This document shows, one piece after another, positions 5,073 to 28,798 of a stretch of 30,538 nucleotides of DNA. Numbering within the stretch: position 1 is the first letter of the stretch; the number at the start of each line of letters is the position of its first letter. Under the pieces are notes generated by a model that was not told where the DNA came from, did no database searches, and saw only the letters and a program-made list of their open reading frames with translations. Origin of the DNA: a virus; IMG/VR virus record IMGVR_UViG_3300046009_001969, positions 1 to 30,538 of that record; one strand, 5' to 3'. Made by a program: the position numbers and the translations under genes.

Positions 5073-5092
5073 ATTAAAATACGAGATTGATC

Positions 5093-8000: not shown

Positions 8001-8482
8001 ACACTGTGCCCGAACCACCTAGACCTACTATATCTGAATTATCAGCAAGTTATAGTAAAGTCAACGATTACAAAATGTTGAGTGATTCTGTGGTTCTAAA
8101 TAGTGTAGTGTTTAAACCTTTATTTGGACCAAAAGCAGCACAAGCATTGCGCGGCACAATTAAAGTTATTAAAAACAATACAACAACAGCAAGTGATAGT
8201 GAAATACGTAGCGCGGTATTGACAAGCATGAATACATATTTTGATATTAATAGTTGGAACTTTGGAGATACTTTCTTCTTCTCAGAATTAAGTGCATACT
8301 TGCATAACCAATTAGGTGATCTAATTAGTTCGGCTGTGCTTGTTCCAAACGACCCATCTGAGCCATTTGGTACATTGTATGAGATTAAGTGTGCTCCATA
8401 TGAAATATTTGCTAATGCTGCGACAGCAAATGATATTTTAGTAATCCCTGCATTAACACCTAACGAATTACAAATAGCATAA
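5093..8482 (+). CDS. gp6: gp6-like baseplate wedge protein, enlarged
   Basis: gp6 makes the continuous inner ring joining the six baseplate wedges. The N-terminus is diagnostic for T4-like gp6: FGINDWKTIYQTFREADF, then LRIYYPETYNDY, then FIALLDVMAFMGQGLAFRND and RENFIDTAERRDSVIKLA. A middle stretch VTYNFGDGVFSNIPVGTFRAYVR with 'REGRAE' resembles the baseplate_J core. The C-terminus has VVFKPLFGPKAAQALRGTIK and a 'FxxxSWNFGDTFFFSELSAYLH' block. At 1129 residues it is much longer than T4 gp6 (660); much of the excess appears to lie in residues about 460-830, a Tyr/Asn/Thr-rich beta region. An in-frame TTG at 5087 is possible, but the ATG at 5093 is preferred because ACGAG (5082-5086) then sits at proper spacing. 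The stop is one base before the next ATG, suggesting coupled translation. Confidence 0.9.
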   Translation: MATSSRQAALFGINDWKTIYQTFREADFRSYDYETLRKSFIDYLRIYYPETYNDYVESSEFIALLDVMAFMGQGLAFRNDLNARENFIDTAERRDSVIKLANLVSYTPKRNLCAEGMLKVVSIQTTQNITDFNGINLSNAIILWNDPANPNWFEQYNTIINAALISSQRIGRPGNVSDLLGIATAEYALQIPANSLPIVPFSTSVDGISMNFELVSVSSVDSDALYELPPAPTGKFNMLYRNDKLGFGSANTGYFFYFKQGSLNNYDFVLEQQIANQAVPVNIQGINNTDTWLYQLNANNNTRILWNQVDNVYADAYLQTETSRKSIFSVSSRFNDQVTYNFGDGVFSNIPVGTFRAYVRASNGLTYTIDPNEMQGVTVAFTYITREGRAETLTLGLQLTQPVSNAQARESLPSIKQRAPTRYYTQNRMVNGEDYNNFPYTLYSSIIKSKSINRSSIGVSKNLDLLDPTGKYSSINSFGDDGAIWENDDNIVLDLTINNNSDVINFFTDTLAGALSLNRANQYYINESSINEGSWYKRFTLPTTGSSAVYWQTSTVDANSENGYFYNIDLTIRTPTQIGIFSTNNTKYITKGAMLQFTAPTGYYFDVNNRLVLGLPGTNPTTLWTTVLNVVGDGSNNGEGNFSNGTGPVTLNGFVPSGCLLTQIIPVFDNSISISNIQEAIIKMELEQDFTLVFNNSLLVNQDRWTIRPHSDANWFVKFTSLGNRRYQILVRSLRYYFGSVSDTRFTFNLNQVVYDPFTGKILQDFINVLGINTAPSSTSALGRDYKVNILGQTVESDGYINDFEVEVSATDTNNSQLILNPDFFYSLTGVETGSSNIGKYVFFRTVQDAVNLTRLEIVPSTDIIYQYATEDQIEVIKYDYPVGQLFYAYSDNIFFKTVQDTTVRTPFYVLVPQPEYSIKYGRQGFSFQYRHNSNNTTRIDPATTNIIDLYVVTQAYYTAYQNYIQDTTNTVPEPPRPTISELSASYSKVNDYKMLSDSVVLNSVVFKPLFGPKAAQALRGTIKVIKNNTTTASDSEIRSAVLTSMNTYFDINSWNFGDTFFFSELSAYLHNQLGDLISSAVLVPNDPSEPFGTLYEIKCAPYEIFANAATANDILVIPALTPNELQIA

Positions 8483-14400: not shown

Positions 14401-17400
14401 TGATGAGATTGCAAGCATTATTGAAGCCTGCCAACTTCTTTAACTTAGGCGTAGATATCGACAATTACAAGTACAACGCTGAATTCAATCAGTTCTTGAT
14501 TAATGATAGAACGCACTTAGTTCCTGCTGATATAGAAATATATGGCAACGGCACAGCTAAAACATCTTATATAAACTGGATCGTTGATTATGAAAAACAA
14601 CTAGGCGTAAATGCTACTGAAAATATCAAGAAACTATTAACTAATCTTGATGTCAGATTGGTTTATAGACTTGCGGGCTTTAGCGACAAAACGTTATTAA
14701 AATTCTTTGTTGAAAAAGGCACACCGGGATCAAAGAACTCATCATTGTTAATTCCAGATGAGAGTTATCAAATATTGCTCTATGAAAATCAACCATATGA
14801 TAAATTGATTTACAGTTCTGCGATTGTGCAATTAACTGAAAATGGTTATAAAGTATTCGGTAATAGTCAAACAACAAACTACTTTAAAACTTTAGTTCCG
14901 ATCATAAATTCAAATACAAAAACTATAACTGTTGAAGATCAATCAGTTAAAGTTGCTGATGATTACGAGTCAACCATTAAGTTAGTTCCATATGGAACAT
15001 TGTTCTATACAGCCCAAGAAGTTGCTCAATTCTTGATGAGTTATGGTGCTTATTTAGAATCAGCAGGTGCAAAATTTGATGTAATAGAATCAGGCATAGA
15101 ACTTAACTGGGAACAAATGGTAGCTGAATACTTGTACTGGACACAAGTTGGCTGGAGTATAGGAAGTATAGTCACTTTAAACCCTGCGGCAAATACTTTA
15201 GTAATTGATAAAGAAAGTCAAATAGTACAGCCTTTGACTTTCCAACAAACAAACTTTGTATTGAATCAAAACTTATATCCTATCGAAACTAAAGATTTAG
15301 CAATATTAAGAGATGGTACTGCGTTTAGCGTATCAGCTTTAAATGCAGGTGATAGTGTTGCTTACGGGCAGTTTAATTTAAGTAATATCGAACATGGTAT
15401 CGTATTTGACAACACAACTATTTTCGGTGATGTGATTTATAATTTAGTATCTGGTTTAAAACAGAATCGTATATCCTTGCAAGGAACAAAGAGTGCTGAA
15501 TGGAACGGCACTATGTTTGCTAGCGGATTTATCTATAATCAAGATAATGTTGAAGAATGGCGCGAAAACACAAAATATACCAAAGGCGCTATCGTTAAGT
15601 TTAAAAACAAATATTTTACAGCATTAGCAATCATTCAACCGAGCAAAGAATTTAGAGAAACTGAATGGAAAGAAACTGATTATAATGAGATTCAAAAGGG
15701 ATTATTGCCTAACAGTAGCACAAGAAGTTATGAAAGTTCTTTATACTACAACACTAATGAGGCAAATCTTGAGGATGATGCTGATCAAGTATCATTTAGT
15801 TTGATTGGCTTCAGATCAAGACCATATATGGCAAGTGCTGATTTGACTGATATCACGCAAGTAAACGTTTATAAAAACTTTATTAAAGAAAAAGGAACAC
15901 GCGCTGCATTGAGCGTATTCAAGGGCGCGAATCTACCTCAGGGCGGCATAGATTATAATATCTATGAAAACTGGGCTATAATGTCCGGTACTTTCGGTGG
16001 AGTTTTAAACAATAACTTTATCGAATTTAAATTAAATCAAAACGTATTGACAGGAAATCCAGGCATAGTTGGGTTGACTACCGGTCAAGAAGTAGAAGGT
16101 GCGCAGCAAATAGTACCATTATATAGTCTAACAAACTATGGGCAACCTGTAAGTGATTCATCAGTATTACCAACTGTAAGCCAGTATACTCCTAATACAG
16201 TTTTTCCTGACGCAGGATATGTAAACTTCAACGATGTAAAAATGAGTGCTTACTTCTTTGAGCAATTGGCTGTAGGCGTGAATCAAAATGGAATCATAGT
16301 ACCTATCAATGATTTTTATGTAGGTGATTATGTTTGGTTAGCAAATTATCTAGCAAAATGGCAAGTAATGACACCAAATGTTATCGCTCAAGTAGTTGAG
16401 GCAAACGCAAATTTAAACGGTACCACTACTATAATATTTGATAAACCTCACAATCTAAATCAATTTGATATCTTTGCTATCATCAATTTTGATAATAGTG
16501 TAAATGGATATTATGTCGCTACTCAGATTGTAAATCCATATCAAGTGATTGTGCCATTAATTTTAAGTAATGGTGTAAGAACTATCACTGGACAGGGTAT
16601 TGCATATAATTTTAGTTCACAGCGAGTAGATCAGCCTAGCGATATTCAAAACTTAAATTTACTTTCTAAAGAATTTGTTAAGAACACTGCATGGGTAGAT
16701 TTAAACAACGACGGCGGATGGGCTGTTTATAGAAAAGGCATCAATTATCAATACGACGAAGAGTTTACAATAGAAAATAGTGTAACATTTGGTTCATCTG
16801 TAGCATATACCAGCAAGGGCGATTATCTATTCGGTGATGCCGGAGCAGGTAAAGTTTATAGATTCCAGTACGATGCTTTAAACAAAATCTATGAACAGGA
16901 TCAAACAATCACAAATGATGTAAGTTTCGGTACTAATATTGCGTATGCTCAAAATATCTATGCTATCTCGCAAGCAACTGTAGACCCTACAATATACTTC
17001 TATTATGTAAATGATACTACAATCACAGACGACATTGAACCATTTAATACAAATACAAATATTGTAGCACCAATCGGCGCAACTAATTTCGGTACTGGAT
17101 TAGCAATGTCAGGCGATGCTAACTGGTTGTATATTGGCGATTATGACACAAATCCATTAAACATAAGAAACAAAGTTCATGTTTATCGTAGAAATAATAG
17201 TTTAGTTTCAGCGACTAATTTAGATGCATTTAAAACATATCAAATCACAGAATTAGGCGATACTGACTTTACGACATTGGGAGCAGTAGAAAATAAAGTA
17301 GGTATTTACTTTGTATATAACGATGTTGCTGCAACAGGTACAGGTACAGTAACAAATGTCGATTACGAGTTCGTAACCACACTAGAAAGTCCTGAGATCA

Positions 17401-20400
17401 CTGCCGACAAATTTGGTTCTGTGCTATCAACAAACTATTATGGCGATGTTCTTGTAGTAGGCGCGCCAGAATACGATTATGATATCAATACTGAAAACTG
17501 GGGCAAGGCATATGTGTATAATAGAATTATACAAAACTTTGAAGTTCAGGAAAATTCAAGCGCCACACCAGCAACTTTCACATTAGCATTTACTCCTAGC
17601 GGCAGCGTAGATCCAATCATTTATCGCAATGGTACTAAGGTAAGTGACACGAATTATAGCATAGTAGGCACATCTTTAATTTACACAGGCACATTAAAAG
17701 CAGGTGATATTATTGAAGTTGATAGTTGTAATTTTAGTTTAGCGCAAGTATTGACTACTGAGACTAATCCAAGAATCGGCGTGATGTTCGGTACTGGATT
17801 AGACACTAACAAGTATGGCACAGAGATACTAGTTGGTGCCCCATTCGCTCTTAATAGCACAAATGAAGAAGGTGCAGTCTATAGATTTACAAATGCAGGC
17901 GCACGTTTTGGTATTGTGATAGGTACAGAAAATGTCGATGTAACCACTAACAGAGACTTATTGATAAATGGTTATCTTGTAACTATACCACCGGGTGATA
18001 GTGATCTAGTTGCATTGACAATTAATCAAGCAAAGATAACCAATGTCGAGGCAGTGTCTACAAATGGTAAATTAATTATTTCTGTGATTAACCAAGACTT
18101 GGCACCTATCAATGAAAAACTAGTATTAAATTTCACTGATCAAGACACATTAACAGAATTAGGATTGACATTATTCAATCAAACACAAGTGATACAGTGT
18201 CCACATTTGACCGGCCCAACACAATTCGGAACAACGATAGCATTCAACGAGAGCAATTCAGTTGTGATAAGTGCGCCGTCTGGCACAAGATATGCTCAAA
18301 CAACGTTTGATTTTGTTGATGATGATAATTACGCCAATGATTTAGTATTTGACAACAACGCTACACAATTTATAGATTCATATCCTAACGCCGGCGCCGT
18401 CTACATGTATGATTATCTAGCAAATTATGAAGAAAACTTAAACAACATAGGGGCATATACATATGCTCAAAGTTGTAATGCTAGAGATCAAATATATGGT
18501 TCACAACCATATTACGGTACAGTGTTAGACTTTAACGAGAATAAAGTTATAATAGGCACGCCAACATATCGTCCAGATGATATAGACGGACAAGTTGTCG
18601 TATACATCAACGAATTAGGAGTTCCTAACTGGTCTGTCTACAGACAGACAAATCCTATTGTTGATATTAATAGAATTCAAAATATTCAGATTTACAACAG
18701 CGAAAGCAATCAAACATTAATCAACATGGATTATTTTGATCCGTTGCAAGGTAAATTACTGGGTGCTATAAGACAAAATATCGACACAATATCAAATGTT
18801 GATCCAGCGACATATAATAATGAAACAAACACTCAGAGCGGATTTGTTTGGGGAGCGGATCAAACAGGAAAAATATGGTTAGATACAACTAATCTAAGAT
18901 TTGTAAATTATCATCAAAATGATAATGTATACAACGCAAAATATTGGGGCTCACTATTCCCGGGTAGTGATGTTGCTGTATATACTTGGATAGCAAGTAA
19001 TGTATTACCAACAGACTATCAGGGCCCGGGTATACCAAGAGATGTCAACAGTTATACAGTACAGACTGTCATCAACAGTTCAAACACTATACAACCTATC
19101 TATTATTTCTGGGTAAGAAATAGCGGATTAATTCTAGGAAACAAAACACTTGCTGATGTTAATATCGCTTCTTATATCGCCAATCCTTTAGCATCAGGAA
19201 TAACTTATTTTTCACCTGTCAATACAAACGTTTTTGCATTATATAACAGCCAGCAATATATCAACGCGCAAGAAAGCGTATTACACATAGGTTATAGTAA
19301 TGGACAGAATGATGATCCAAGTCACCAATCTTATCAGTTGATACGCGAAGATTTTGCTAGCGACTTCTTACCTGGATTCGTAAATCCATCAAAGGGTATT
19401 TTTGAACCACGCGGTCTATATGATAGAATGCTTGACAGTTTAGCGGGCGTAGACGAAGAAGGGGGTGTATTACCGGATCCGTTCTTACCTAAACTTGTAC
19501 AAACAGGTGTACTCGCACGTCCAAGACAGAGCTTCTTTTATAATAGATATAAAGCATTGCAAAATTACTTGCAATATGCAAACACTATTTTAAGTTTATT
19601 CCCTATCACTGAATTAAGACCATTGATTTCTTTCTTAAACGAGAAGGGTGACTACTATGACACGACATTATATTGGGAGCGCGTCAACTGGTGGGCACCT
19701 GGTTATGATAATAATACAAAGGCAGCTATACAAGTTCCATTATACGCGGATTTGTCTACGCTAAATGTGTCAGTAGGCACTATCGTTGCTGTAAATCAAA
19801 ATAGTCAAGGCTTTACAGAATTTTATCGTTTTGATGAAAATGGTATCTGGACCAGAATTGGATTACAAAACGGTACTATTAGATTTAAAACAGAACTTTG
19901 GAATTATGATGAAGGACAGACAGGTTACGGTGATGACTTTTATGGTACTACACCATATGATCAATATCCAAGCGAAGAAACACGCTGGATCATTCGTGCA
20001 TTAAACGAACAAATTTATACAAATGATTTACTAATATATCGTAATAAGTCATTAATTTTGTTATTCGAATATATCCAGGCTGAAACAGTTGAGAATCAGA
20101 ATTATTTGCCGTGGTTAAACAAAACATCTTTAGTAGACGTTTCGCATAAAATACGCGAACTTGTCCCATTACAAAACTTTAAGTCTGATAATCAAGAATT
20201 CTTGTCTGGTTATGTCAATGAGGTTAAACCATATCACGTAGTCATCAAAGAATTCTTGTTTGAATATACAGGAGAAGATATCTATCAAGGTAATCTAACT
20301 GACTTTGATCTACCTGCGACATATGATTTCACTACACAATCCTTCATAAGTCCGCAGCTTGTCTATAGTAATCCAAATCAATCAAGTGAATTTTTACCAG

Positions 20401-23400
20401 ACGACTCAATTTGGGAATTATCGCAATATACCGAATGGCGCAACAATTATGGCGTAAGTCTAGTAGGACAGGATAATTATTTAATCACTACTACAGTAAG
20501 TTATCTACCTATCGGCGCAACTTTCCTAATATTAGACAACGCTCAGGGTTTCCCAATTAATGGTACTATCAAGATTGCTGACGTAGAAAATCCCTCACGT
20601 TTTGAAATTATTGGTTATAGTTCAGTTGACACTAGCACTAATACATTATTTGGCTTGACTAGAGGATTAAACGGTACTGAAGAATATGATCATATTCCTG
20701 GCGAAAATGTTTATATTGATTTGCCTGCTGTTGTAGTTTTAGACGGCGGCAGAGGTTATAGTAACCCGCCTAGAGTGCTAGCTCAGATAGATTTAAGCAA
20801 ATACCCTGCACCTAAAGAAGAAGCAGTATTAGAGGCAGTGATGAGTCTTGACTCTGTTGTTGCTATCAATGTGATTAATCCTGGAATAGGATATCCAGTA
20901 CTACCTAACATAATCATCGAACCCGCAGCATCATTTACTTTTGGTAGTGACAGCGTGACAGCGATTGAAAGCACAATAGAACTTTATGCACCTGATTTAC
21001 AAACAGGCGACCTAGTGCGTTATGTCAAGGTATCAGGTCAAAATATCGGGGGATTAGAAAATAATCAATATTACTATATTAATGTATTAAGTAATAGCCC
21101 TCTTACAATTCTTGCATTATACGCAAATTATAGCGATGCTATAAAAGATCAAAATAGAGTTGAAATATATAGCCAAGGATCAGGTTCTGATCATAAATTT
21201 GAATTAGGTGCAAAAGCTAGCGCAATCAGCTCAAGTTATCCAGTTAGAGAAAATAATATAACACTACGTTTCGACAGAACAACATACGATACGCAAGTTA
21301 CAGACTGGGTACCCGGCTCATTCTATGGCGCATTCTTTGCAGGTTCATATAACAATACTGAAAACATAAGCAGTTCAAGTATTGAGTTACAGTCAACATT
21401 GCCACCAATCAATACAATTTTGTCAAGTAATGATGGACTTGTTTTACCTCTTGTAAACGTAGACAATGAGCGTGTACTAGATTGGTCAGAATTTGAACGC
21501 AATGTTTTAAGCACTAATTTGTCAAGCAATATTATTACTTTAGATGTGGACGTTGCATCTGAAAATGCTAGCGGTTCAACAATAGGTTTTACTGTTGGGA
21601 TGCCAATTAAATTTATAGGTACCGCCGGAACTAGCTCAATCGTAAGTGGTACAACTTATTATGTAAACGAGATCATCAGCGATACTCAATTTAAGATAAG
21701 TGCTACACAATATGGAACTGTTTACAATGTGGGTAATAGTTCAGCAGGAACTGATTTCAAATGCTACACGGCGCAAATTATCGACACAGCTATTGTTTCT
21801 ACATACTATCCAGGAATCAGAACTGTTACTGCAACTTCAGCTAATAATAGCATTGTCACTATTCCATTGACTGATATTGGTACAGGTGGTACAGCAGGTT
21901 TATATACTGGTATACCAGTCGTATTTACAGGAAATGTATTTGGCAACATCGAAGAACATGTTGTGTATTTTGTGACTTCTGTTCTTGATGATGAAAACTT
22001 TACTATTAGCGATACGGATGAGTTTGTCCGCATCAAAGCTTTAAGTATCAATGCTGCCAATCAAATAATTGTTCAAAACACTACTGGCTTAAATGTCAAT
22101 GATCGCATCGTCTTTAGCAATATGACGATTGAAGGAGAGGCAGTTACCGAGTGGGGCAATATTCAGCAAGGCACGATTTATTATGTTAAAACTATTGATG
22201 TTAACGTAATTACTATCAGTGAAATATTGGGAGGGGCTACATTCGCCGTTTCTCCTGTGACATCAAATAGTCAAACATATTGCTTCTTTGTAGATCAGGA
22301 AAACAATTTTACTCTCGACAACGCTTCTGGCAATATGACAATTAACATACAGTTACCAGCAAGTCCTGGTCAAGTTAACGGTCAATTATTTACGTTCTAT
22401 CCAACTAGTAATCAATACGTCAATATTACATCTACGGATTATGGTAATCTAGTTGAAAGAACAGTAGAGTACGCATCTTCAGATGCTAATTTAATCACAT
22501 TAACTAGCCAAAGCGGCGGCACTAATAGCATGTATATTGGTATGCCGATCACTGTTGATCAAAATATTGGTGGGCTTGTAGCAAATACAACTTATACTAT
22601 AGAAGATATAGGTGAAATTACTGTAGCCATAACAAATTCTTCGGCATCAAGCAATACATTCACTGTAGACGGTACAGTTGACAGTTTATATATCGACATG
22701 CCTATCGTATTTTCAGGTAATCCATTAGGCAGTATCATAATTGGCGTAACATATTATGTTGAAAGTATTGATACTATAAACAACAAATTTACAATTAAAG
22801 ACAGTTTGACAGGAACTGAATTAGCACTCACTACCAATACAGGCAGCATGATAGGAACAGGTCCTGCATATATCAAATTGAACACAACTATCACTTCAAA
22901 TCAATATGGACCTGTAACGTTGAATCAAAAGATAACAACAGACCCAGTGTTTGACGTAAGTTATATCTTAGGTGGTTATAGAGTCATCATTTCAGACCCG
23001 GGTGCAGGATTTACGGTCAACAACACTATCACTATACCCGGTAATTTGTTAGGAGGATATTCCCCACAAAATGACCTTACACTAAAGGTCAACAAGATAG
23101 ATGCTATTGTTCCCGGCACATACAGTTGGTCATTACCTATCGAAAGTAACGGTAATATAATCAACGTTATTTGCTCAGGTACACCAAATGCAACAACTAA
23201 TAATTACTATCTAAAAGTAATCGGCTCAAATACATTTAAGGTATATAGCGATCCTAGAATGACTGTTCCTGTAAGTGGATTAACTCTAGGATATGACGGT
23301 GCTACGATCTCAACAGCAAATACTGTTGCGTCTAACGGTGTGATTACTGTAGATGATGCATCCTTGTTTGAGATAAACAATTCTATTGTATTTACCGGCG

Positions 23401-26400
23401 ATGTGTTTGGAAGTATCACTTTAGGTCAAACTTATTATATAACAAACATCAATACAGGCACTAATGAAATCACTATTAGTGATGAGCCAGGTGGCAGCCC
23501 CGTCGTAACTACACCAGAATCTGGTACTATGACAGTTGCAACACCGGGCTCATACATGTTCTTGCCTGAACCATTCTACTTTAATCAAAGCATCGTCAAA
23601 TACAACAACCGCGTTTATATTTGTGTTGTATCAAACAATGACGATCAATTTGTGTTTGGTAAATGGGAAGAGTTAAACAGCGGTGATCGTAGATTGAATG
23701 CTATGGACCGTGTGAAGGGCTATTATCAGCCAACAATTAATATGCCTGGTACTGATCTAAATCAATTGTTTGCCGGTGTAACATATCCAAATACAACTTA
23801 TAAGGGTAACGCTTTCGATCCTGCTGAACAATATGAAATAGATACATTATTACAAGATCAAATTTTCTATCCAGACAATGTTAATATTACAGGTATCGCA
23901 TGGGATGGCGTAAACTATATCGCCCCTGCAAATTTACCAAATTATACTGCATTAGCAAAAGACATTGAAGTAACTGATGATTGGTTGTTAGGAAGATTGA
24001 GCAATAAGCCTTTAAGCATAACAGATATCATCAAAACAGATGATTTATTTGTAATGACTTCTACGAACAGTGCTACGCCAATATTGACAAGTACTGATGG
24101 CACCGGTTGGTCAACTAATGGATTCTTCATACCATTTGGTGTCGAGGATAACGAATTAGAATTCGAAAGAAAATTATTAATACAATCTAAATTAACATTC
24201 AACAAGGTTGCATACGGTAATGGAAAATATGTAGCGGTCGGAGAAAATATTTGCACTAGTGATTCTGCAGTAAATTGGTTAGAAACATATAAATTTGATA
24301 CAGGTTCAAATGGCTATATCTATGATGTTGCTTATGGCTCTACTTCATTCTTTACGGGTTTCATCGCTGTAGGTACTAAAAATTCTACAAAAATATTCCT
24401 ACAGAGTATAGACGGTATAACATGGATCGAACGCACAGCATTTGATTATTCTATACCTGCTACATTACCACAGAGAAATGCTACTTTGAGAACAGTAACG
24501 TTTGGTAGTTCATCTGTAGTCATTGGTGGTGATCTAGGAGTAGTTTATCGTTGGCCAGGCGGACCAGTTGTATATCAAGGTGCTTTTGGATCCGCGACAT
24601 CTTGGAATGATGCGCTGTTCGCACAAAACACATTTGCAATAGTTGGTAATAATGGCAAATTATTAACAAGTGCTAACGGTATAAATTGGGTCGAAAAAGC
24701 GACAGGCACGACAGAAAATTTAAACAAAATTTATTACAACACTGAACGCCCTGAGTGGACAATAGCAGGTAATAATAATACATTATTCCAGACTCTAGAT
24801 ATAACAACTGATCCTATAGTATGGGATAAAACTCAACTCTTTAGCATCCCTGACCCTGCTTATACAGTAAAGGGCGATCCGTTCATGTCAGGTTATGGCC
24901 CAGAAGAGCTGGTACCGGGTATTGTTACAGACCAATTGACTATGATCGTAAATACACGTCCAGGAACTAATTGGGCAGCTACAGAATATGCACATGTTGG
25001 ATATAATGTAGTAAGTGTAGAATTAGATTATGAAAGCAATAATGAATATAGTTTTGCTGACGTAGTAGCTGTCCCATCTAATATATCTGTATATGTAATC
25101 ACTGATGGTTTAGCGACAGGAATTTATTCAAGCATAGACTATACAGTAGATTATGTCAACAAGACAATTGAATTAACTACAAACATCTCAAACACACAAC
25201 AATTACGTGTAGATGTTTATGAAGTAGGAAATGGCGACCAGTTAATCAAATCAAATACACAAATCGACCCGTTGCGTCAAAATAATACTACTGGCTTCCA
25301 AGAAATCTTATTAAACTGTAATTACACCGCTGAAAGACTAAATGGCGGCGGTATTATCAGACCAGCTACCGATCCTACTTCAACAGATGCAACAGCAACA
25401 GATAGTTTGCTCAACACGATTACAGTAAATGATGTTTCTATCTTTACAGTAAATGATGATGTATATTTCACTGGCGAAGTATTCGGTAATTTAGAGGAAA
25501 ACACACCATATTATGTCAAGACAATAGATCCTGTACAAAAAACTATCACTGTGTCAGAAACTATCAATGATGGAATAGCCGGACCGATCTTTAATGTCAG
25601 TTCTGATTCTGGCAATATGGTAGCAGTAGCACAAAATGGTCCAGGACAATACTGGACTCCGCCTGCAGTGCTCCATAATGGAAATAGATTAATCAATGGT
25701 GAAACCAATTTAGTAGTTAGAAGTAAATCTTCATCTAATTCTCTAATAACTTATTCAACTGTTGGATTACTTCCAAATCAAAAAATTATATTTGATAATA
25801 ACATATTTGGTGGCTTGGTACCTCATCAAACTTATTATATCAAAGATGTTTTCACAAGCGGAACAGAATTCACTGTGTCAGAAACAGAAGGCGGATCTGT
25901 AGTAGTTCTTAACAATGCTTTAGGTAAATCCAACTTTATCACACAAGATTATGCTGTGATGTTAGCTGATAATCAAATCTCAGCTAAGGTTGTATTTGCA
26001 GCCGAGTATAACACGAATACTGATTATATTTCATTTACTTTCTTTGGCGAAACTTTACCTACTCAGTATGGCTATACTGTACCAGAAACACAGGTATTTT
26101 ATGGAAACGGCACAAGGGGTAATTATTATCTTACAAACTATTTAGGCGAAGATAATGATACTAATGCTATCGTTGAGGTCAATGGTTTAAGAATAATGCC
26201 AGATCAATATGTTATTAACTATAACCAAGAAGTACTTGTATTCGATACTCTAGAGCCAACATCAAATGATGTCATCGCGGTGACTACTTTTAATGATACT
26301 CAAAGACAATATCTAAACACACAATATGAATTGAGTCCGATCAACGTAATTTCTATCGATAATGTTTATAATACGATAACTACCCCACTGATTGATACTC

Positions 26401-28016
26401 AAACTTTACAAACTCAGACAGTGGGATCAACATTATATTATGTAGCAAGTAACATCACTAATTTTATCGTAGGTCAAAATATAGTGTTCCAAGTTGCTGA
26501 AACAGGCTCTATCCCGTTTGGAGGAGTACAAATAGACGGTACTGTTTATACATTAGTCGAAGTAAATGGAAACAATTTTAGAGTAGAAGATGAGAATGGC
26601 ATTTCTTACCCATCTGGTTCAGGAACCGGATTGATGCACGTAGTAGTAGGAGGTCAGCCTGCAGTTCGTGTACAAACCACAGATCCGCATCAGTTGTCAA
26701 CAAATGATTTAGTTCGTATTGACGGCATCACGGGATCCGTTCAACTTAATAACAATATTTTCTATGTCCACGTTATAAGTGAAACATTGTTCGACTTGTA
26801 TCAATATTTCCCAGATAATCCTGAAGAAAACTACAGTCCATATGTAGATGCTGTAAATCATCCTATCACGATTTGTGACAGTTACGTAAGTGATGGTTAT
26901 GTTTGGTTGTCAAATACTTGGACACTAGAGACAACAACTGTAACAAGTTGCACAAGTTTAGAATTGTCTGTAGATAATGTATTGCCCCTAGTATTACATA
27001 CTCCTGTATACTTTACAGAAAACAATATAGCGTTGGGTGAACCAACAAGCATACCACAAATCATCGCAGGTGAAAAATATTATATCAGCGGGATAGATGT
27101 TGACAACAATACAATTACCATAAGCGAAACTATTGACGGAACAGATATCACACTAGCCCCACAAGGTACCACTAATATTGTGTTGACACAGTGGGAACAA
27201 ACAAATGTAGATCGCTTGTGGGTGACAGTTAACGGCGAGCGCGTGCCATCTTCATCTCTAAGATTAAATGCAGGAAATCAAGTAAGCATCCTCGCACCAA
27301 TAAACATAGGCGACGAAATCATTATAACTAGCATGATGCCTTCTGCTACACCTAACGAGTTAGTATATGTCAATACTGTAAATAAAAATAATGAGGGAAC
27401 AGTATATAGAGCTAACGGTGACAGTAGAACATGGTTGACAGAAGCATTGACGGAATACCAAAATATTGTGTATGTAAATGATATTAATAATTTGACTTAT
27501 AAGAGTGAACAAACAAACACAACACCTGCTAAAGAATTAGGATATTATTATATACCACTCAATGCTGACAAGAATGATATTATTGACGTAAGCATCTATA
27601 ATAACGCAGCAGGACGTGCAGGTTATATCGAGGAAGATTTCTTACAACTAGAAGTAAGATCGACCGGTGCGTTCATTAGAATTCAAGAGGGTGATTGGAT
27701 AGAAGAGGGAGACTCATTAACGATTACAGTTTATGAGGGTAAAATCATCTACATGCAGGGTGAATATATGCGCGTACTAAGTGTAGATCAATTTACCAAT
27801 AGTATGGAAGTAGAGCGCGGAGCAAACGGATCTGGTATACAAGTGTATATTCCAAAATACTCTGAAGTTTATAGCTTTTTAGATAAGAACACAATGACTA
27901 ACATAAATTATAACGATACTTGGAATAAGATTCCTGGACTTTATAATTCAACGATGGGAGATCCGTTACAAATCGCTATAGGATCAGCTGCAGAATTCTT
28001 AAGAATGGATGAATAG
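8484..28016 (+). CDS. giant modular baseplate/tail structural protein, 6510 residues
   Basis: This is a single open frame of 6510 codons (roughly 0.7 MDa), starting one base after gp6, the place of gene 7 in T4 order. I see no similarity to T4 gp7 by eye. It is rich in Asn, Thr, Tyr, Ile and Val, low in Cys, and has no signal peptide or membrane segment. Approximate residue map: 1-150 opening block (TRIRTLEFLPSIFQTPTN); 177-241 cupredoxin-like; 331-516 interrupted beta repeat; 560-850 conserved-looking block with SINKNAWSRSNRWFHSDVI; 861-1072 tandem 'YxIT' modules; 1506-2340 a Trp/Tyr-rich block (GNWRGIYMYYFD); 2357-2400 CBM-like; 2764-3379 FG-GAP propeller; 3893-3946 a block with NEVKPYHVVIKEF; 4348-6233 beta repeats interrupted by a second propeller (5178-5456); 6420-6510 closing block with PGLYNSTMGDPLQIA. 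A fused wedge/fibre or host-contact role is inferred from position and domain types. The weak Shine-Dalgarno suggests coupling to gp6. Confidence 0.85.
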   Translation: MTRIRTLEFLPSIFQTPTNSQFLAATLDQLVNPPLTKKIQGYVGSKFGYGVNANDFYVTEPTKVRTDYQLEPGVTFLKNNESVAKDFISYPGILDALKLQGGITTDNSKLFNSQFYSWDSFTNLDMIINYNQYYWLPEGPPAVIVASDTVFLNNEYIVESLPNTYNIRAIGAGAGADNPTITLIRGGTYNFYVDQDTEFWIQGKPGVTGKDPSQPNINTRMVYGVDNNGEDRGIVTFNVPFKDAQNEFNFPGNNLVDVVSTLPFSQVNGARLSDINNIDGVTSLNGRTVMFYNPNNRPEEFTNEIGYVSNFFAEGTYDTNYGNLVAPITKTATAISGSGDITLSNVANLSIGGSITFSGPSFGGLFPYTPLRYVEIPSSSMTAGLMYWITELGDTNWINAGVTSNATLNGEINGNLLTVETVISGAFNIGMTITGSGIASGTTITGYDAETSGLTGKDTYYVSVSQTVPNTNIDVYDLSDGKIFTSTGPLAGTGKVRRYQPVIYYIKTINSVNNTITISLSLDGPTYVPSAAAIGNMIVRVNEGLYEEGFYVNVNDYFFNITYVGDVTDPVLKLTPVPNGLIPSEQKITAQFGTNYIGQNFFKNDYGYVQLIPYISAPLDILYYQDNVNPNKVGVIRLIESNALNTLNVNTEILGKKNFTSTNGVVFTNGLKVEFDGDVIPTSYLSGQYYVQGVGTAIELIPVDTLVVPESFTTQTSLPYDTTNFDIGNFDASLFVPENPDYITIARNSINKNAWSRSNRWFHSDVIKATSEYNDNPDILTTFANATNKAKRPILEFYPNLKLFNSGTVGKSSVDFVDTRTTDAFSAVAGQAAYYPDVETYTNYSTSATIAASPTVTQGQFLLGQQYRITNIGTTAPAAWVALGVNVFVEGEFVPGIEYVITLLGSTDWNAIAGTADISPSNLTVGKEYEITILGNTDWNSIGYIGVPIVGGTFIATATGSGTGLVDGVYEVGSIFTAVYSGETVGSGGGQAAETLFTAQSTGVINSGDLIADLEYTITELGTTLWNNISYYDPLNPSDPDNRSWGAGDPVVGGTFIATAAGVGTGYATQGDGTALSLTATTITIPASTVVGNLTVGMYINDQIRGNQSQLPTNTRILSIDGTSTYTITVFYPLPTIIPGSASLIYPPSFTPPEISFVANSKNNSDLLLFAGARIVFLNESNPIVKNKIYVANYSTTVSGLYPIITLTEALDGEILANDQFAVLRGQNYQGTSFYYDGENFIQAQQKTTINQPPKFDVYDKNGISFGNEDFYESTTFNGCDLLRYKIGTGANDSVLGFPISYSSLNNVGDITFEVALNTDTFNYVTGIQQNVTETQKVNTGYVYNVTSRTEFERLLGWQTAVAPSTQYQIFEFKYTPDPSIEFAEGDTIFYTVNCDVSQLSVSDTIWPSLEVYNNNNILIINTDYTVENGSDFTNITVQIPGLFETVIQVAILSNQTSQNAYYSIPINLSNNPFNSDVTTVDIGDIRGHYQSIFYNNPDTTGVVFGANNTRDLGNIVPWGNRIIQNSASLVLPGSFLRQAEHSLFDSLLFNSREYIKFKSLLIDTANKIDWQQRYNPSALLDEALDQITSVKNQEMPFFWSDMIPNKAPFITNTYTFFNNIDTSTFPLSKIYNFDAANYDGVLVYLQTTAEGTTITKQLVKNIDYTISSDTPSLIVTKDLINGDKIVIKEYNQTYGSYVPNTPTKLGLYPASVPSVILDSSYNQPTYFILGHDGSYTKLYGNYDPVLGLIDYRDQVLLEFETRVYNNLKLSNTIPIQAADIIPGYFRDNTVNYDEWLSIYSSTFLDWVGQNRLDYKTQLYLSTNEYTYNYTNSRNKLDNAIIQQGNWRGIYMYYFDTSTPNTTPWEMIGYANKPSWWETQYGPAPYTSDNLILWQDMENGYDYNNGNPVEIEIYKRPGLLNILPVDDQGNLINPLFALVGNYNPNTFQRDWTIGDVGPVEFSYRRSSTWPFDLMRLQALLKPANFFNLGVDIDNYKYNAEFNQFLINDRTHLVPADIEIYGNGTAKTSYINWIVDYEKQLGVNATENIKKLLTNLDVRLVYRLAGFSDKTLLKFFVEKGTPGSKNSSLLIPDESYQILLYENQPYDKLIYSSAIVQLTENGYKVFGNSQTTNYFKTLVPIINSNTKTITVEDQSVKVADDYESTIKLVPYGTLFYTAQEVAQFLMSYGAYLESAGAKFDVIESGIELNWEQMVAEYLYWTQVGWSIGSIVTLNPAANTLVIDKESQIVQPLTFQQTNFVLNQNLYPIETKDLAILRDGTAFSVSALNAGDSVAYGQFNLSNIEHGIVFDNTTIFGDVIYNLVSGLKQNRISLQGTKSAEWNGTMFASGFIYNQDNVEEWRENTKYTKGAIVKFKNKYFTALAIIQPSKEFRETEWKETDYNEIQKGLLPNSSTRSYESSLYYNTNEANLEDDADQVSFSLIGFRSRPYMASADLTDITQVNVYKNFIKEKGTRAALSVFKGANLPQGGIDYNIYENWAIMSGTFGGVLNNNFIEFKLNQNVLTGNPGIVGLTTGQEVEGAQQIVPLYSLTNYGQPVSDSSVLPTVSQYTPNTVFPDAGYVNFNDVKMSAYFFEQLAVGVNQNGIIVPINDFYVGDYVWLANYLAKWQVMTPNVIAQVVEANANLNGTTTIIFDKPHNLNQFDIFAIINFDNSVNGYYVATQIVNPYQVIVPLILSNGVRTITGQGIAYNFSSQRVDQPSDIQNLNLLSKEFVKNTAWVDLNNDGGWAVYRKGINYQYDEEFTIENSVTFGSSVAYTSKGDYLFGDAGAGKVYRFQYDALNKIYEQDQTITNDVSFGTNIAYAQNIYAISQATVDPTIYFYYVNDTTITDDIEPFNTNTNIVAPIGATNFGTGLAMSGDANWLYIGDYDTNPLNIRNKVHVYRRNNSLVSATNLDAFKTYQITELGDTDFTTLGAVENKVGIYFVYNDVAATGTGTVTNVDYEFVTTLESPEITADKFGSVLSTNYYGDVLVVGAPEYDYDINTENWGKAYVYNRIIQNFEVQENSSATPATFTLAFTPSGSVDPIIYRNGTKVSDTNYSIVGTSLIYTGTLKAGDIIEVDSCNFSLAQVLTTETNPRIGVMFGTGLDTNKYGTEILVGAPFALNSTNEEGAVYRFTNAGARFGIVIGTENVDVTTNRDLLINGYLVTIPPGDSDLVALTINQAKITNVEAVSTNGKLIISVINQDLAPINEKLVLNFTDQDTLTELGLTLFNQTQVIQCPHLTGPTQFGTTIAFNESNSVVISAPSGTRYAQTTFDFVDDDNYANDLVFDNNATQFIDSYPNAGAVYMYDYLANYEENLNNIGAYTYAQSCNARDQIYGSQPYYGTVLDFNENKVIIGTPTYRPDDIDGQVVVYINELGVPNWSVYRQTNPIVDINRIQNIQIYNSESNQTLINMDYFDPLQGKLLGAIRQNIDTISNVDPATYNNETNTQSGFVWGADQTGKIWLDTTNLRFVNYHQNDNVYNAKYWGSLFPGSDVAVYTWIASNVLPTDYQGPGIPRDVNSYTVQTVINSSNTIQPIYYFWVRNSGLILGNKTLADVNIASYIANPLASGITYFSPVNTNVFALYNSQQYINAQESVLHIGYSNGQNDDPSHQSYQLIREDFASDFLPGFVNPSKGIFEPRGLYDRMLDSLAGVDEEGGVLPDPFLPKLVQTGVLARPRQSFFYNRYKALQNYLQYANTILSLFPITELRPLISFLNEKGDYYDTTLYWERVNWWAPGYDNNTKAAIQVPLYADLSTLNVSVGTIVAVNQNSQGFTEFYRFDENGIWTRIGLQNGTIRFKTELWNYDEGQTGYGDDFYGTTPYDQYPSEETRWIIRALNEQIYTNDLLIYRNKSLILLFEYIQAETVENQNYLPWLNKTSLVDVSHKIRELVPLQNFKSDNQEFLSGYVNEVKPYHVVIKEFLFEYTGEDIYQGNLTDFDLPATYDFTTQSFISPQLVYSNPNQSSEFLPDDSIWELSQYTEWRNNYGVSLVGQDNYLITTTVSYLPIGATFLILDNAQGFPINGTIKIADVENPSRFEIIGYSSVDTSTNTLFGLTRGLNGTEEYDHIPGENVYIDLPAVVVLDGGRGYSNPPRVLAQIDLSKYPAPKEEAVLEAVMSLDSVVAINVINPGIGYPVLPNIIIEPAASFTFGSDSVTAIESTIELYAPDLQTGDLVRYVKVSGQNIGGLENNQYYYINVLSNSPLTILALYANYSDAIKDQNRVEIYSQGSGSDHKFELGAKASAISSSYPVRENNITLRFDRTTYDTQVTDWVPGSFYGAFFAGSYNNTENISSSSIELQSTLPPINTILSSNDGLVLPLVNVDNERVLDWSEFERNVLSTNLSSNIITLDVDVASENASGSTIGFTVGMPIKFIGTAGTSSIVSGTTYYVNEIISDTQFKISATQYGTVYNVGNSSAGTDFKCYTAQIIDTAIVSTYYPGIRTVTATSANNSIVTIPLTDIGTGGTAGLYTGIPVVFTGNVFGNIEEHVVYFVTSVLDDENFTISDTDEFVRIKALSINAANQIIVQNTTGLNVNDRIVFSNMTIEGEAVTEWGNIQQGTIYYVKTIDVNVITISEILGGATFAVSPVTSNSQTYCFFVDQENNFTLDNASGNMTINIQLPASPGQVNGQLFTFYPTSNQYVNITSTDYGNLVERTVEYASSDANLITLTSQSGGTNSMYIGMPITVDQNIGGLVANTTYTIEDIGEITVAITNSSASSNTFTVDGTVDSLYIDMPIVFSGNPLGSIIIGVTYYVESIDTINNKFTIKDSLTGTELALTTNTGSMIGTGPAYIKLNTTITSNQYGPVTLNQKITTDPVFDVSYILGGYRVIISDPGAGFTVNNTITIPGNLLGGYSPQNDLTLKVNKIDAIVPGTYSWSLPIESNGNIINVICSGTPNATTNNYYLKVIGSNTFKVYSDPRMTVPVSGLTLGYDGATISTANTVASNGVITVDDASLFEINNSIVFTGDVFGSITLGQTYYITNINTGTNEITISDEPGGSPVVTTPESGTMTVATPGSYMFLPEPFYFNQSIVKYNNRVYICVVSNNDDQFVFGKWEELNSGDRRLNAMDRVKGYYQPTINMPGTDLNQLFAGVTYPNTTYKGNAFDPAEQYEIDTLLQDQIFYPDNVNITGIAWDGVNYIAPANLPNYTALAKDIEVTDDWLLGRLSNKPLSITDIIKTDDLFVMTSTNSATPILTSTDGTGWSTNGFFIPFGVEDNELEFERKLLIQSKLTFNKVAYGNGKYVAVGENICTSDSAVNWLETYKFDTGSNGYIYDVAYGSTSFFTGFIAVGTKNSTKIFLQSIDGITWIERTAFDYSIPATLPQRNATLRTVTFGSSSVVIGGDLGVVYRWPGGPVVYQGAFGSATSWNDALFAQNTFAIVGNNGKLLTSANGINWVEKATGTTENLNKIYYNTERPEWTIAGNNNTLFQTLDITTDPIVWDKTQLFSIPDPAYTVKGDPFMSGYGPEELVPGIVTDQLTMIVNTRPGTNWAATEYAHVGYNVVSVELDYESNNEYSFADVVAVPSNISVYVITDGLATGIYSSIDYTVDYVNKTIELTTNISNTQQLRVDVYEVGNGDQLIKSNTQIDPLRQNNTTGFQEILLNCNYTAERLNGGGIIRPATDPTSTDATATDSLLNTITVNDVSIFTVNDDVYFTGEVFGNLEENTPYYVKTIDPVQKTITVSETINDGIAGPIFNVSSDSGNMVAVAQNGPGQYWTPPAVLHNGNRLINGETNLVVRSKSSSNSLITYSTVGLLPNQKIIFDNNIFGGLVPHQTYYIKDVFTSGTEFTVSETEGGSVVVLNNALGKSNFITQDYAVMLADNQISAKVVFAAEYNTNTDYISFTFFGETLPTQYGYTVPETQVFYGNGTRGNYYLTNYLGEDNDTNAIVEVNGLRIMPDQYVINYNQEVLVFDTLEPTSNDVIAVTTFNDTQRQYLNTQYELSPINVISIDNVYNTITTPLIDTQTLQTQTVGSTLYYVASNITNFIVGQNIVFQVAETGSIPFGGVQIDGTVYTLVEVNGNNFRVEDENGISYPSGSGTGLMHVVVGGQPAVRVQTTDPHQLSTNDLVRIDGITGSVQLNNNIFYVHVISETLFDLYQYFPDNPEENYSPYVDAVNHPITICDSYVSDGYVWLSNTWTLETTTVTSCTSLELSVDNVLPLVLHTPVYFTENNIALGEPTSIPQIIAGEKYYISGIDVDNNTITISETIDGTDITLAPQGTTNIVLTQWEQTNVDRLWVTVNGERVPSSSLRLNAGNQVSILAPINIGDEIIITSMMPSATPNELVYVNTVNKNNEGTVYRANGDSRTWLTEALTEYQNIVYVNDINNLTYKSEQTNTTPAKELGYYYIPLNADKNDIIDVSIYNNAAGRAGYIEEDFLQLEVRSTGAFIRIQEGDWIEEGDSLTITVYEGKIIYMQGEYMRVLSVDQFTNSMEVERGANGSGIQVYIPKYSEVYSFLDKNTMTNINYNDTWNKIPGLYNSTMGDPLQIAIGSAAEFLRMDE
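9012..9206 (+). other. cupredoxin-like beta-sandwich module in the giant protein
   Basis: Residues about 177-241 run NPTITLIRGGTYNFYVDQDT, then a FWIQGKPGVTG segment, then VYGVDNNGEDRGIVTFNVP. The 'NPT-x-T-x-x-x-G-x-x-Y-x-F-x-V' opening and 'G-V-x-N-N-G-x-x-x-G-x-I-T-F-x-V-P' closing resemble cupredoxin-type domains found in phage and bacterial surface proteins. I see no His/Cys/Met set for a type 1 copper site, so the module is probably structural. The assignment is by eye only. Confidence 0.5.
9475..10030 (+). repeat. 'F-G ... Y-Y-I' beta repeat split by guest modules
   Basis: Residues 331-365 (GDITLSNVANLSIGGSITFS, then GPSFGGLFPY) match the first half of the beta repeat that dominates residues 4348-6233. 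The second half, VIYYIKTINSVNNTITISLS, appears only at about residues 499-518. Between them lie a 'YWITELGDTNW' module and a 'GMTITGSGIASGTTITG' strand-turn module. This reads as guest modules lodged inside one repeat unit. Confidence 0.5.
11065..11697 (+). repeat. tandem cluster of four 'Y-x-I-T-x-x-G-x-T-D-W' modules
   Basis: Four degenerate copies lie side by side: QQYRITNIGTTAPAAWVALG, IEYVITLLGSTDWNAIAG, KEYEITILGNTDWNSIG and LEYTITELGTTLWNNIS. The third and fourth end in VVGGTFIATAAGVGTG or a close variant; the second lacks that half. The motif is common in phage fibre and bacterial surface proteins; its ligand is not known to me. Single copies occur elsewhere in this protein (about 9625-9690 and 17222-17352). 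Confidence 0.65.
15552..15680 (+). other. CBM5/12-like carbohydrate-binding segment in the giant protein
   Basis: Residues 2357-2400 read EEWRENTKYTKGAIVKFKNK, then YFTALAIIQPSKEF, then TEW. The spacing 'W ... Y-x-x-G-x-x-V-x-x-x-x-x-x-Y-x-A ... P ... W' matches the small aromatic-rich modules of the CBM5/12 type, which bind chitin and related polymers. A looser look-alike occurs near 23568-23680 (SIVKYNNRVYICVVSNNDDQ, then KWEEL). Glycan binding on the host surface is an inference from pattern only. Confidence 0.5.
16774..18620 (+). other. seven-bladed FG-GAP beta-propeller with inserted domains
   Basis: Seven blade signatures occur in order: VTFGSSVAYTSKGDYLFGDA (near 16781), VSFGTNIAYAQNIYAIS (16920), FGTGLAMSGDANWLYIGD (17088), FGSVLSTNYYGDVLVVGAP (17412), FGTGLDTNKYGTEILVGAP (17787), FGTTIAFNESNSVVISAP (18225) and YGTVLDFNENKVIIGTP (18514). 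Most blades are followed by a 'G-x-V-Y-x-Y' type strand (GKVYRFQY, NKVHVYRR, GKAYVYNR, GAVYRF, GAVYMYDY, GQVVVYI). This is the integrin-alpha style FG-GAP pattern. Blades 3, 4 and 5 carry extra domains after that strand. A 16-base stretch is identical in blades 3 and 5 (17088-17103 and 17787-17802). Confidence 0.75.
17560..17745 (+). other. 'N-G ... D-x-N-Y-x-I' module, guest of propeller blade 4
   Basis: The segment ATFTLAFTPSG leads to IIYRNGTKVSDTNYSIVG and ends in LKAGDIIEVDS. It resembles the small beta domain common in phage fibres (similar in pattern to the T7 fibre N-terminal domain: 'V-x-x-N-G ... D-Y-x-V ... G-D-x-I-x-V'). Comparable copies are near 12697-12870, 13396-13570, 25078-25250, 26160-26300 and 27205-27340 in the same gene. 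Confidence 0.5.
20496..20730 (+). other. 'T-R-G-L-N-G-T' beta module, first of two
   Basis: Residues about 4005-4083 read SYLPIGATFLILDNAQGFP, then ADVENPSRFEIIGYSSVD, then LFGLTRGLNGTEEYDHIPGE. A diverged second copy near 27740-27880 has EYMRVLSVDQFTNSMEVERG with GANGSG. This module type (E-x-I-x-Y ... T-R-G-x-x-G-T ... H) is frequent in phage tail proteins. It is followed by two 'G-x-G-Y' motifs (GGRGYSNPPRV, NPGIGYPVLPN). Confidence 0.55.
21526..27180 (+). repeat. dispersed family of about ten 'F-x-G-x-x-F-G ... Y-Y-V' beta repeats
   Basis: A degenerate unit of roughly 75-85 residues recurs with the order 'N-x-I-T-V ... I-V-F-x-G-x-x-F-G-x-I ... Y-Y-V-x-x-I ... F-T-I-S ... G-G'. Clear copies: VVFTGNVFGNIEEHVVYFVT (near 21920), IVFSGNPLGSIIIGVTYYVE (22705), IVFTGDVFGSITLGQTYYIT (23384), VYFTGEVFGNLEENTPYYVK (25460) and IIFDNNIFGGLVPHQTYYIK (25785). 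Weaker ones lie near 21606, 22107, 22548, 26450 and 27006. Stretches between 23520 and 25385 are other modules, including the second propeller. An extra split copy lies near 9475-10030. Confidence 0.7.
24016..24850 (+). other. second beta-propeller, Asp-box/BNR-like class
   Basis: Residues about 5178-5456 show five to six repeats of 'V-x-Y-G-N-G-x-Y-V-A-V-G ... T-S-x-D-G-x-x-W'. Examples: ILTSTDGTGWSTNG, KVAYGNGKYVAVGENICTS, IFLQSIDGITWIER, VTFGSSSVVIGGDLG, FAIVGNNGKLLTSANGINW and WTIAGNNNTLFQTLD. The 'S-x-D-G-x-x-W' turns recall Asp-box/Ycf48-like propellers. Sialidase catalytic residues are not evident, so a binding or scaffolding role is more likely than an enzyme. Confidence 0.65.
27740..28016 (+). 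other. C-terminal block of the giant protein
   Basis: The last 90 or so residues include IIYMQGEYMRVLSVDQFTN, VYIPKYSEVYSFLDKNTMT and PGLYNSTMGDPLQIAIGSAA. They differ from the repeat modules in having Trp, Met and Pro at fixed-looking positions. They look like a dedicated terminal domain, perhaps for attachment or capping. I recall similar endings in structural proteins of marine T4-like phages but cannot confirm this here. Confidence 0.5.
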
Positions 28017-28019
28017 GTT

Positions 28020-28184
28020 ATGATAAATAAATCTATAGGGAATAAATCGGAAATTAAGGACAAAAAAGAGGGAATTATAGAGAAAAAGCCCGATGAGAAA
28101 AGCGGTGTTTATTTCTCCTCACATGTCAAAATTTACGATCCTAACACTAAAGAAGTATTTGTACAAAAGAGGGCCGACGATTAA
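28020..28184 (+). CDS. 54-residue Lys-rich protein with a KIYDPN motif
   Basis: This short gene fills the space after the giant gene (three-base gap). Its stop overlaps the next start (TAATG, 28182-28186). Residues 1-32 are Lys/Glu-rich and probably unstructured. Residues 35-54 read HVKIYDPNTKEVFVQKRADD, which aligns with residues 11-30 of the next protein (FLKIYDPNSLEVFVDKKNAI) at 11 of 20 identical positions, with many synonymous codon differences. That conservation, and the tight packing, argue that it is translated. A late-promoter box (28022-28029) overlaps its start codon, so translation from this ATG would depend on read-through transcripts. Function is unknown; a small connector or assembly peptide is possible. 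Confidence 0.7.
   Translation: MINKSIGNKSEIKDKKEGIIEKKPDEKSGVYFSSHVKIYDPNTKEVFVQKRADD
28022..28029 (+). promoter_or_regulatory. T4-type late promoter box (GATAAATA) at the 54-residue gene start
   Basis: GATAAATA lies six bases after the giant gene's stop and overlaps the ATG of the 54-residue gene. If used, transcription would begin near 28036, past that ATG. It would then serve the 28184 gene with a leader of about 150 bases. Confidence 0.5.
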
Positions 28185-28798
28185 TGATAACTGTATCCTA
28201 TAAAATTGAAGGATTTCTTAAAATCTACGACCCTAATAGCCTTGAAGTTTTCGTAGACAAAAAGAATGCTATTAACTACGAAAACATGAGCGAAGCATTA
28301 GCTGATACATTAAGTAATCGTGGTTATGGGGAAATTTACCAAATGGCATTTGGTAATGGTGGCGCGTCGGTTGACGAAACAGGTATTATTACTTACTTGC
28401 CACCCAACACGACGGGGCAAAATGCAGCTTTATACAATGAAACTTATGCAAAGATTGTTGATGATACTAGCGTTTTCAACCTTGACCCTACAAGAAATAA
28501 GATGACTGTAAATCATACGTCTGGTAAACTTTATAGCGACATCTTAGTTTCTTGCTTATTGGATTACGGTGAGCCTGCAGGACAGGGTGCATTTGATAAT
28601 AGCACTCAAACAGATTCAGATTACATATTTGACGAATTAGGATTATTAGCTAATTATGGGACAGATAATGAAGGTAATGTTATAACTAGACTATTAACTC
28701 ATGTTATATTCCATCCCGTTCAGAAGTCATTAAACCGTCAAATTCAAATAGATTACACAGTGAGAATACAAAGCCTCACAAACCTATTAACTATATAG
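28184..28798 (+). CDS. conserved-type virion structural protein, 204 residues
   Basis: No named T4 homologue is recognised. The N-terminus carries the KIYDPNSLEVFVDKKNAI motif shared with the preceding 54-residue protein, followed by a helix (MSEALADTLSNRGYGEIYQM) and a GNGGASVDETGIITYLPP turn. Near the end, LLTHVIFHPVQKSLNRQIQI leads into DYTVRIQSL, a beta-strand pair that I recall as typical of structural proteins in marine T4-like phages. GAGGG at 28169-28173 provides a Shine-Dalgarno ten bases from the ATG, which overlaps the upstream stop. Its place between the giant protein and two fibre genes suggests a connector between baseplate and fibres; that is inference. Confidence 0.8.
   Translation: MITVSYKIEGFLKIYDPNSLEVFVDKKNAINYENMSEALADTLSNRGYGEIYQMAFGNGGASVDETGIITYLPPNTTGQNAALYNETYAKIVDDTSVFNLDPTRNKMTVNHTSGKLYSDILVSCLLDYGEPAGQGAFDNSTQTDSDYIFDELGLLANYGTDNEGNVITRLLTHVIFHPVQKSLNRQIQIDYTVRIQSLTNLLTI

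Follow-up and report, generated by a model that had tools for sequence, protein, structure and literature searches.

The locus described here was compared with the connectors that, in several phages, join the wedge of the baseplate to the fibres. According to excerpts of the respective sources, gp8 of T4 is a dimer, present in 12 copies per tail, which touches gp10, gp7, and gp6 (PMC3004832), and gp105 of A511 forms the proximal part of the fibres and attaches the receptor-binding proteins (PMC11406892). Excerpts of a further study name both gp8 and A511 gp105 as the connectors that link wedge protein 3 to the fibre network (BW3TFN), describe the three connector dimers of A511 as beads on the string of an extended wedge-3 chain, and report that connector dimers in crystals accept each other's His-tags (PMC10811340). 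In the same excerpts, the gp8/gp105 fold is assigned to the Milano garland (gp125/gp127), and the authors ask what its "glue" or "string" may be, suggesting gp126, which has a long N-terminal string and was not detected in the Milano proteome (PMC10811340). The excerpts mention no separate head gene for the connectors of T4 (gp8), A511 (gp105), or phi812, and the titles and abstract openings of the papers listed by literature searches name no small hairpin/connector gene of the type presented below, which is no proof of its absence.

The window (the whole stretch of 30,538 nt that was analyzed, from IMG/VR record IMGVR_UViG_3300046009_001969) was recognized from its ORF list and family searches as the tail module of a large myovirus, in which a gene of 54 codons lies between a giant virion gene and a gene of 204 codons. 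The features of the window are:

1142-2620: hub/tail-lysozyme-like protein, the first listed gene of the tail module
2627-4576: 649-aa protein, encoded between the hub/lysozyme-like gene and that of the gp25-like protein, for which family searches gave no convincing match
4589..5038, + strand: gp25-like baseplate wedge protein (PF04965)
5087..8482, + strand: gp6-like baseplate wedge protein (phrog_10646 and phrog_219, each a baseplate wedge subunit)
8484..28016, + strand: giant 6510-aa virion protein, directly 5' of the 54-aa ORF (phrog_10938, virion structural protein)
28020..28184, + strand: 54-aa small gene with an ATG start, encoding a tail, a KPDExxG motif, and a beta-hairpin
28020..28085, + strand: variable N-terminal tail of the small protein, residues 1-22 (pN/pS 0.74; pLDDT blocks 49 and 55; predicted to be disordered)
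28086..28106, + strand: KPDEKSG, the conserved [K]P[DN]ExxG head motif, residues 23-29, from the family alignment; also present on fused connectors
28122..28169, + strand: hairpin motif HVKIYDPNTKEVFVQK of the small protein (AlphaFold2 strands 35-39 and 46-51; blocks 31-50 at pLDDT 91-94)
28182..28186, + strand: TAATG stop/start overlap, found at 72 of 81 loci, where translational coupling is likely
28184..28798, + strand: 204-aa connector-like, probably baseplate protein (phrog_11259, a family of unknown function)
28214..28261, + strand: N-terminal hairpin FLKIYDPNSLEVFVDK of the 204-aa protein (model strands E5-15 and E22-30)

The gp25-like and gp6-like genes precede the giant gene, which is followed by the connector, an order that supports the predicted tail-gene context and underlies the comparison of the connector with T4 gp8 and A511 gp105. 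By the gene order of T4, the giant protein would occupy the position of gp7, a wedge protein, and may represent the wedge-3 equivalent. Its PHROG match ("virion structural protein") lies in its first part, and its last 2510 residues (20484-28013) have no PHROG match at E 0.1. The annotated matches of the 204-aa protein comprise 60 records, at identities of 32-52%, and the closest annotated phages are jumbo phages, that is, Sinorhizobium Phosso, Agrobacterium Atu_ph07, and phages of the RaK2/CBB and PA5oct types; homologues are annotated as "structural protein" in some records, such as those of CBB and 7t3.

The original prediction was that adjacent genes with overlapping stop and start share a short motif, and the coordinates, the motif, and the overlap were all confirmed. 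The sequences HVKIYDPNTKEVFVQK and FLKIYDPNSLEVFVDK are identical at 11 of 16 residues and 31 of 48 bases, with different codons at six of the 11 identical residues, and none of 300 shuffles of the small protein reached their ungapped 16-mer score of 61 (the best shuffle scored 39). The last base of the TAA stop of the small gene (28182-28184) is common to the next ATG, and the same TAATG junction was found at 72 of the 81 loci compared, the window included, with the ATG directly after the stop at eight loci and three bases later at one. Read-through of the stop into the connector was considered and rejected as a conserved arrangement, because only these nine loci (eight starting directly after the stop, one a codon later) have the two genes in the same frame. 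In the AlphaFold model of the small protein, based on 53 sequences, a confident hairpin is preceded by a disordered tail (pLDDT 49-55) and a KPDE segment of intermediate confidence (77). The Arg at position 51 is invariant in the 53 aligned sequences of the small family, and the connector of the window has neither this Arg nor the KPxE motif.

In 80 of 80 IMG/VR loci, the small ORF occupies the same position with an open frame, and these loci are near relatives, because they are the best 80 of at least 600 matching stretches; 78 of these frames were established by script and two (L049 and L069) by reading, and the start is unsure in L061, which lies at a contig end. In the core of the protein (residues 22-54), the pooled pN/pS is 0.22 and the median dN/dS 0.12 (530 usable pairs of 69 distinct sequences), compared with a pN/pS of 0.74 and a median dN/dS of 0.77 in the N-terminal tail, and 0.09 and 0.03, respectively, in the 204-aa gene (the pN/pS here on the 58 of 69 rows without indels), all of these values being rough, because the synonymous sites are near saturation. 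Between the small genes of the window and locus L001, for example, there are 9.5 synonymous changes over 29.3 sites and 7.5 non-synonymous changes over 132.7. To judge by these comparisons, the small gene is under purifying selection, and the comparative data are stronger evidence of selection at the protein level than the codon divergence of the motif pair, on which the claim of a similarity held at this level was initially based. Neither a loss or frameshift of the frame nor a Ka/Ks near 1 was found among the close relatives. The open frames and the low dN/dS of the core rule out a spurious ORF, and bear out the view that a real, selected small gene had been overlooked.

A search of the window record with the small protein, at E up to 10, recovered only the protein itself and the N-terminus of its neighbour (E 0.0015). 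A hairpin module common to both proteins is supported, but the motif was not matched, at E up to 10, by the gp6-like, giant, and fibre-like proteins of the window. When nine large IMG/VR records were searched with a family profile, each yielded the small ORF, at E 2e-23 to 9e-29, and the N-terminal part of the 204-aa homologue, at E 2e-6 to 5e-4. Matches of any kind were obtained in 11 of 13 whole records, the exceptions being RaK2 and CBB; in Phosso, only the connector was matched (E 1e-4), and in Atu_ph07, both the small ORF (7e-11) and the connector (0.009). Beyond the small ORF and the connector, the 13 records yielded a single match, at E 0.057, inside a giant protein, and the recurrence of the motif in further proteins is not supported at the sensitivity of these searches of the window record and the 13 whole records. 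In four of these records, the match of the profile to the small ORF crosses a stop upstream of the start codon, and the script sets the start after that stop.

The small protein of the window has no Pfam, PHROG, or NCBIfam match, and tblastn against the phage collection, at E up to 10, gave none either; its homologues in cultured phages were found through synteny and profiles. The cultured Pseudomonas aeruginosa phages of the Paride/PA5oct/MIJ3 group have a gene of 41 aa (for example, WPK40665.1) at the same place, with KKPDE followed by HVKIVDLKTNKELLNKRG, and 11 P. aeruginosa phage records match this gene over residues 15-41 (27 of the 41 residues, all identical), two of them without an annotated feature at this position. 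Atu_ph07 has a head gene of 42 aa (FDI40_gp179), and a GIY-YIG/NUMOD3 endonuclease-like gene intervenes between it and the gene of the connector. In several of the distant small proteins, namely those of Atu_ph07, L115, L122, L195, L247, L289, and L292, the P[DN]E motif is not clean. The mass spectrometry of the Atu_ph07 virion, in the excerpt of its source, gives 131 proteins, with a cluster at CDS 170-215 (PMC6102473), and the excerpt on the MIJ3 particle names four proteins only, with no bearing on the small protein (PMC6892783). When the small-family alignment (A1) was searched against solved structures, a match to 7on8_A (SAKe6AR; E 0.0056, over 11 positions) was taken as chance.

Wider scans, based on the Phosso homologue (16 loci), CBB (the best 80 of 82), L157 (the best 80 of 243), and Paride (4), brought in 180 loci, a few of them repeats. 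When 269 loci were classified by one script, the head was found as a separate gene in 94 (a count that overstates independence, given that 81 of these consist of the window itself plus the 80 loci kept from a single search around it), fused to the connector in 45 (a class defined by a regular expression, which numbers 39 under a tighter cut of the N-terminus and a P[DN][EDV] head), in neither form in 130, and in both forms in none. Some of the 269 loci represent one phage twice (L084/L124, L083/L140, and L157/L209), and the partial L123 and the re-fetched stretches of records already included (L085-L107) were left out. Even with a looser motif, none of the 94 split loci carries a head on its connector, and the separate head is absent where the homologue of the neighbour itself starts with the tail, [K]P[DN]ExxG, and hairpin.

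A connector beginning with the tail, the P[DN]E motif, and the hairpin was observed in L146, L157, L170, L203, and most of L209-L246, as exemplified by the fused head KKPDEASGIYVRGHIKIHDPESGEVFIDKPNAIHYENIS of L216, where a long upstream ORF overlaps the start of the connector. In L157, L170, and L209-L216, a long ORF, open on the contig side and taken as the giant protein, stops no more than a few bases from where the connector starts; L146 and L203 have a different upstream ORF, of about 310-320 aa. Upstream of the connector, the nearest ORF of at least 150 aa lies at a median of 167 nt from its start in 93 split loci versus 8.5 nt in 44 fused loci, and as this gap is under 100 nt in 42 of the 44, these have no room for the small gene. 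No upstream ORF was obtained at 29 of the 269 loci, and the fused loci L235 and L237 have no ORF of 150 aa close upstream. For the loci with neither form, the possibility that the upstream protein carries the motif near its C-terminus was considered and rejected, with KP[DN]E present in the last 150 residues of none of the 130. A looser [DN][ED]xx motif is matched by 16 of these loci, in some cases by chance; L218, where KTDEHQG represents a fused head that has diverged, is one of them, as are marine loci with short heads, for instance L272. Given that 130 of the 269 loci have neither form, the head is dispensable in many lineages.

For the trees, 268 connector bodies were reduced to 101 rows, and a careful tree was built from 59 of these, with the hairpin left out. 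This tree requires six changes of the split label, and well-supported branches impose at least four of them; among 200 bootstrap trees of the same set, not one needs only one change; a quick tree of the 101 rows requires seven changes, of which two are forced. These repeated changes indicate that the head changed place, or was lost, repeatedly. The direction, from split to fused or the reverse, is not readable from these trees, and the similar ends of most of the small proteins (KRG, KRA, GRG, and others) may hint at one old separate gene.

The AlphaFold model of the 204-aa connector has a mean pLDDT of 90.2, and was based on 71 of 74 non-redundant connectors (L061, L190, and L199 were left out); its hairpin (strands 5-15 and 22-30) is mostly confident, with block means of 77, 96, and 95. 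Foldseek found nothing significant for this model (best E 0.074): every entry of its list, which included lectins and astrovirus spikes, was above E 0.07. The seven top rows of VIA-align 2, run over Foldseek's top 1000, were the HFTV1 tail (Z 10.4), phiKZ gp139 (7.9), the phiKZ outer baseplate (7.5), A511 gp105 (6hhk, 7.4), the phi812 arm segment (9fko, 7.3), Klebsiella KP1 (7.2), and the phi812 baseplate (6.7), followed by a row at 4.3, where a Z under 8 may reflect only a common arrangement. Apart from phiKZ gp139, these rows are all chains from the tails or baseplates of tailed viruses, and T4 gp8 itself is not among the rows shown. The best of them, an HFTV1 tail protein (9h4p, chain BD), aligns over 135 residues at 2.6 A, but differs in belonging, as a domain, to an archaeal virus chain of 953 residues, with 17% identity. 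For phiKZ gp139 and 9euj, the aligned part of the model starts only past the first strand or the hairpin (residues 25 and 49), so that these two alignments are silent on the hairpin itself. Sequence searches of the PDB with alignments A2 and A3 found no phage match among the solved structures (best E 0.16 and 0.33). The structural alignments are suggestive of a baseplate fibre-connector like A511 gp105 and the phi812 arm segment.

The homology of the head and the N-terminus of the connector, the purifying selection, the either/or distribution, and the repeated change are all demonstrated by comparison of the sequences. The either/or distribution, together with the forced changes of the split state, leads to the interpretation of the small protein as the detached head of the 204-aa family, and it is rather probable that this N-terminal head plays in trans the part that the fused head plays in cis. 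The small gene probably serves the virus and is not junk, because the head is separate or fused, and never both, among the relatives examined. The separate head would probably be translationally coupled to the connector, which in this window keeps only its own hairpin, and, given the prevalence of TAATG, coupled translation may provide the small protein in proportion to the connector. The hairpin, which resembles the first hairpin of the connector, might seat the small protein beside it in the virion, with the tail and the P[DN]ExxG motif being offered to a further baseplate partner, and the connector, if similar to T4 gp8 and A511 gp105, would join the wedge (the giant protein) to the fibres. 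This makes the small protein a candidate accessory subunit of the virion, with a putative location, partner, and stoichiometry.

A number of observations stand against this detached-head interpretation. The connector of the split phages keeps its own hairpin, so that the small hairpin is no simple replacement, almost half of the loci (130 of 269) lack either form, the motif is unclean in several of the distant small proteins, and the fold of the connector is only suggestive. A bolder version, which is considered rather unlikely, is that the detached head, as a free peptide of hairpin and tail, is the "string" of a jumbo-phage baseplate, by which one gp8/gp105-type connector dimer would be clipped or threaded to the next, and all of them to the giant wedge protein, in which case the repeated swaps between cis and trans would alter the stoichiometry of the connectors and the flexibility of the fibre network. 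Any likeness to Milano gp126 would lie in this proposed string role. What emerges is a conserved small-gene family, with members in cultured Pseudomonas and Agrobacterium phages, and a head module of a probable baseplate connector that moves repeatedly between cis and trans; the question of what strings the gp8/gp105-type connectors, as raised in the excerpts on Milano (PMC10811340), would become testable in laboratory-grown phages.

Other functions of the small protein were weighed against the detached head. It is unlikely, for example, that the protein is a non-virion assembly chaperone, which caps the connector or the giant protein during the assembly of the wedge and leaves before maturation: it is small, its gene overlaps that of the connector, its tail is disordered, and the neighbour's proposed analogue, T4 gp8, acts according to the excerpted source as a chaperone for the folding of gp6 (PMC3004832), but the head is part of the connector chain in the fused phages, and would stay in the particle unless cleaved. 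The original prediction of a competitor, plug, or assembly timer, with the small hairpin contending with that of the connector for one site, is now improbable. It draws on the similarity of the two hairpins and the overlap of the genes, but head and connector form one chain in 45 of the 269 loci, where there are no two separate competitors, and the KPxE and invariant Arg 51 of the small family are missing from the connector of the window. This idea is weakened further by the lack of loci with both forms and the repeated change of state, which a component supplied in trans fits better than an antagonist of the neighbour.

The gene itself, rather than its product, would matter if it were a regulatory leader, the translation of which serves the coupling to the connector. 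The TAATG overlap at 72 of 81 loci is in keeping with this role, which nevertheless seems quite improbable, given that selection is far stronger on the C-terminal protein core than on the tail, that the same residues are found inside fused connectors, and that another gene lies between the two in Atu_ph07. The possibility of a decaying partial duplicate, devoid of function, is very slight: the gene is clearly a partial copy of, or a source for, the 5' end of the neighbouring gene, but its frame is open in 80 of 80 loci, the dN/dS of its core is about 0.12, and it is present in phages of distant hosts.

A few further observations concern the genes around the head and the connector. The last ORF of the window, which runs off its end, has no family match, and the 314-aa protein at 28829-29773 matches Peptidase_G2 (intramolecular chaperone autocleavage) above the Pfam cut-off. 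The connector homologues of XacN1 (L207:4968-6176) and RAS14 (L208:4986-6182) reach approximately 400 aa, with a large insertion between conserved blocks. The gene situated exactly between the detached head and connector genes of Atu_ph07 (gp178, L082:5252-5965) combines a GIY-YIG domain (LEM-3-like) with NUMOD3. In L002, L003, L007, L009, L014, L046, L047, L052, and L073, the head and connector lie in the same frame, with the stop and at most one or two codons between them, and the same arrangement is found in L250:3809-4120.
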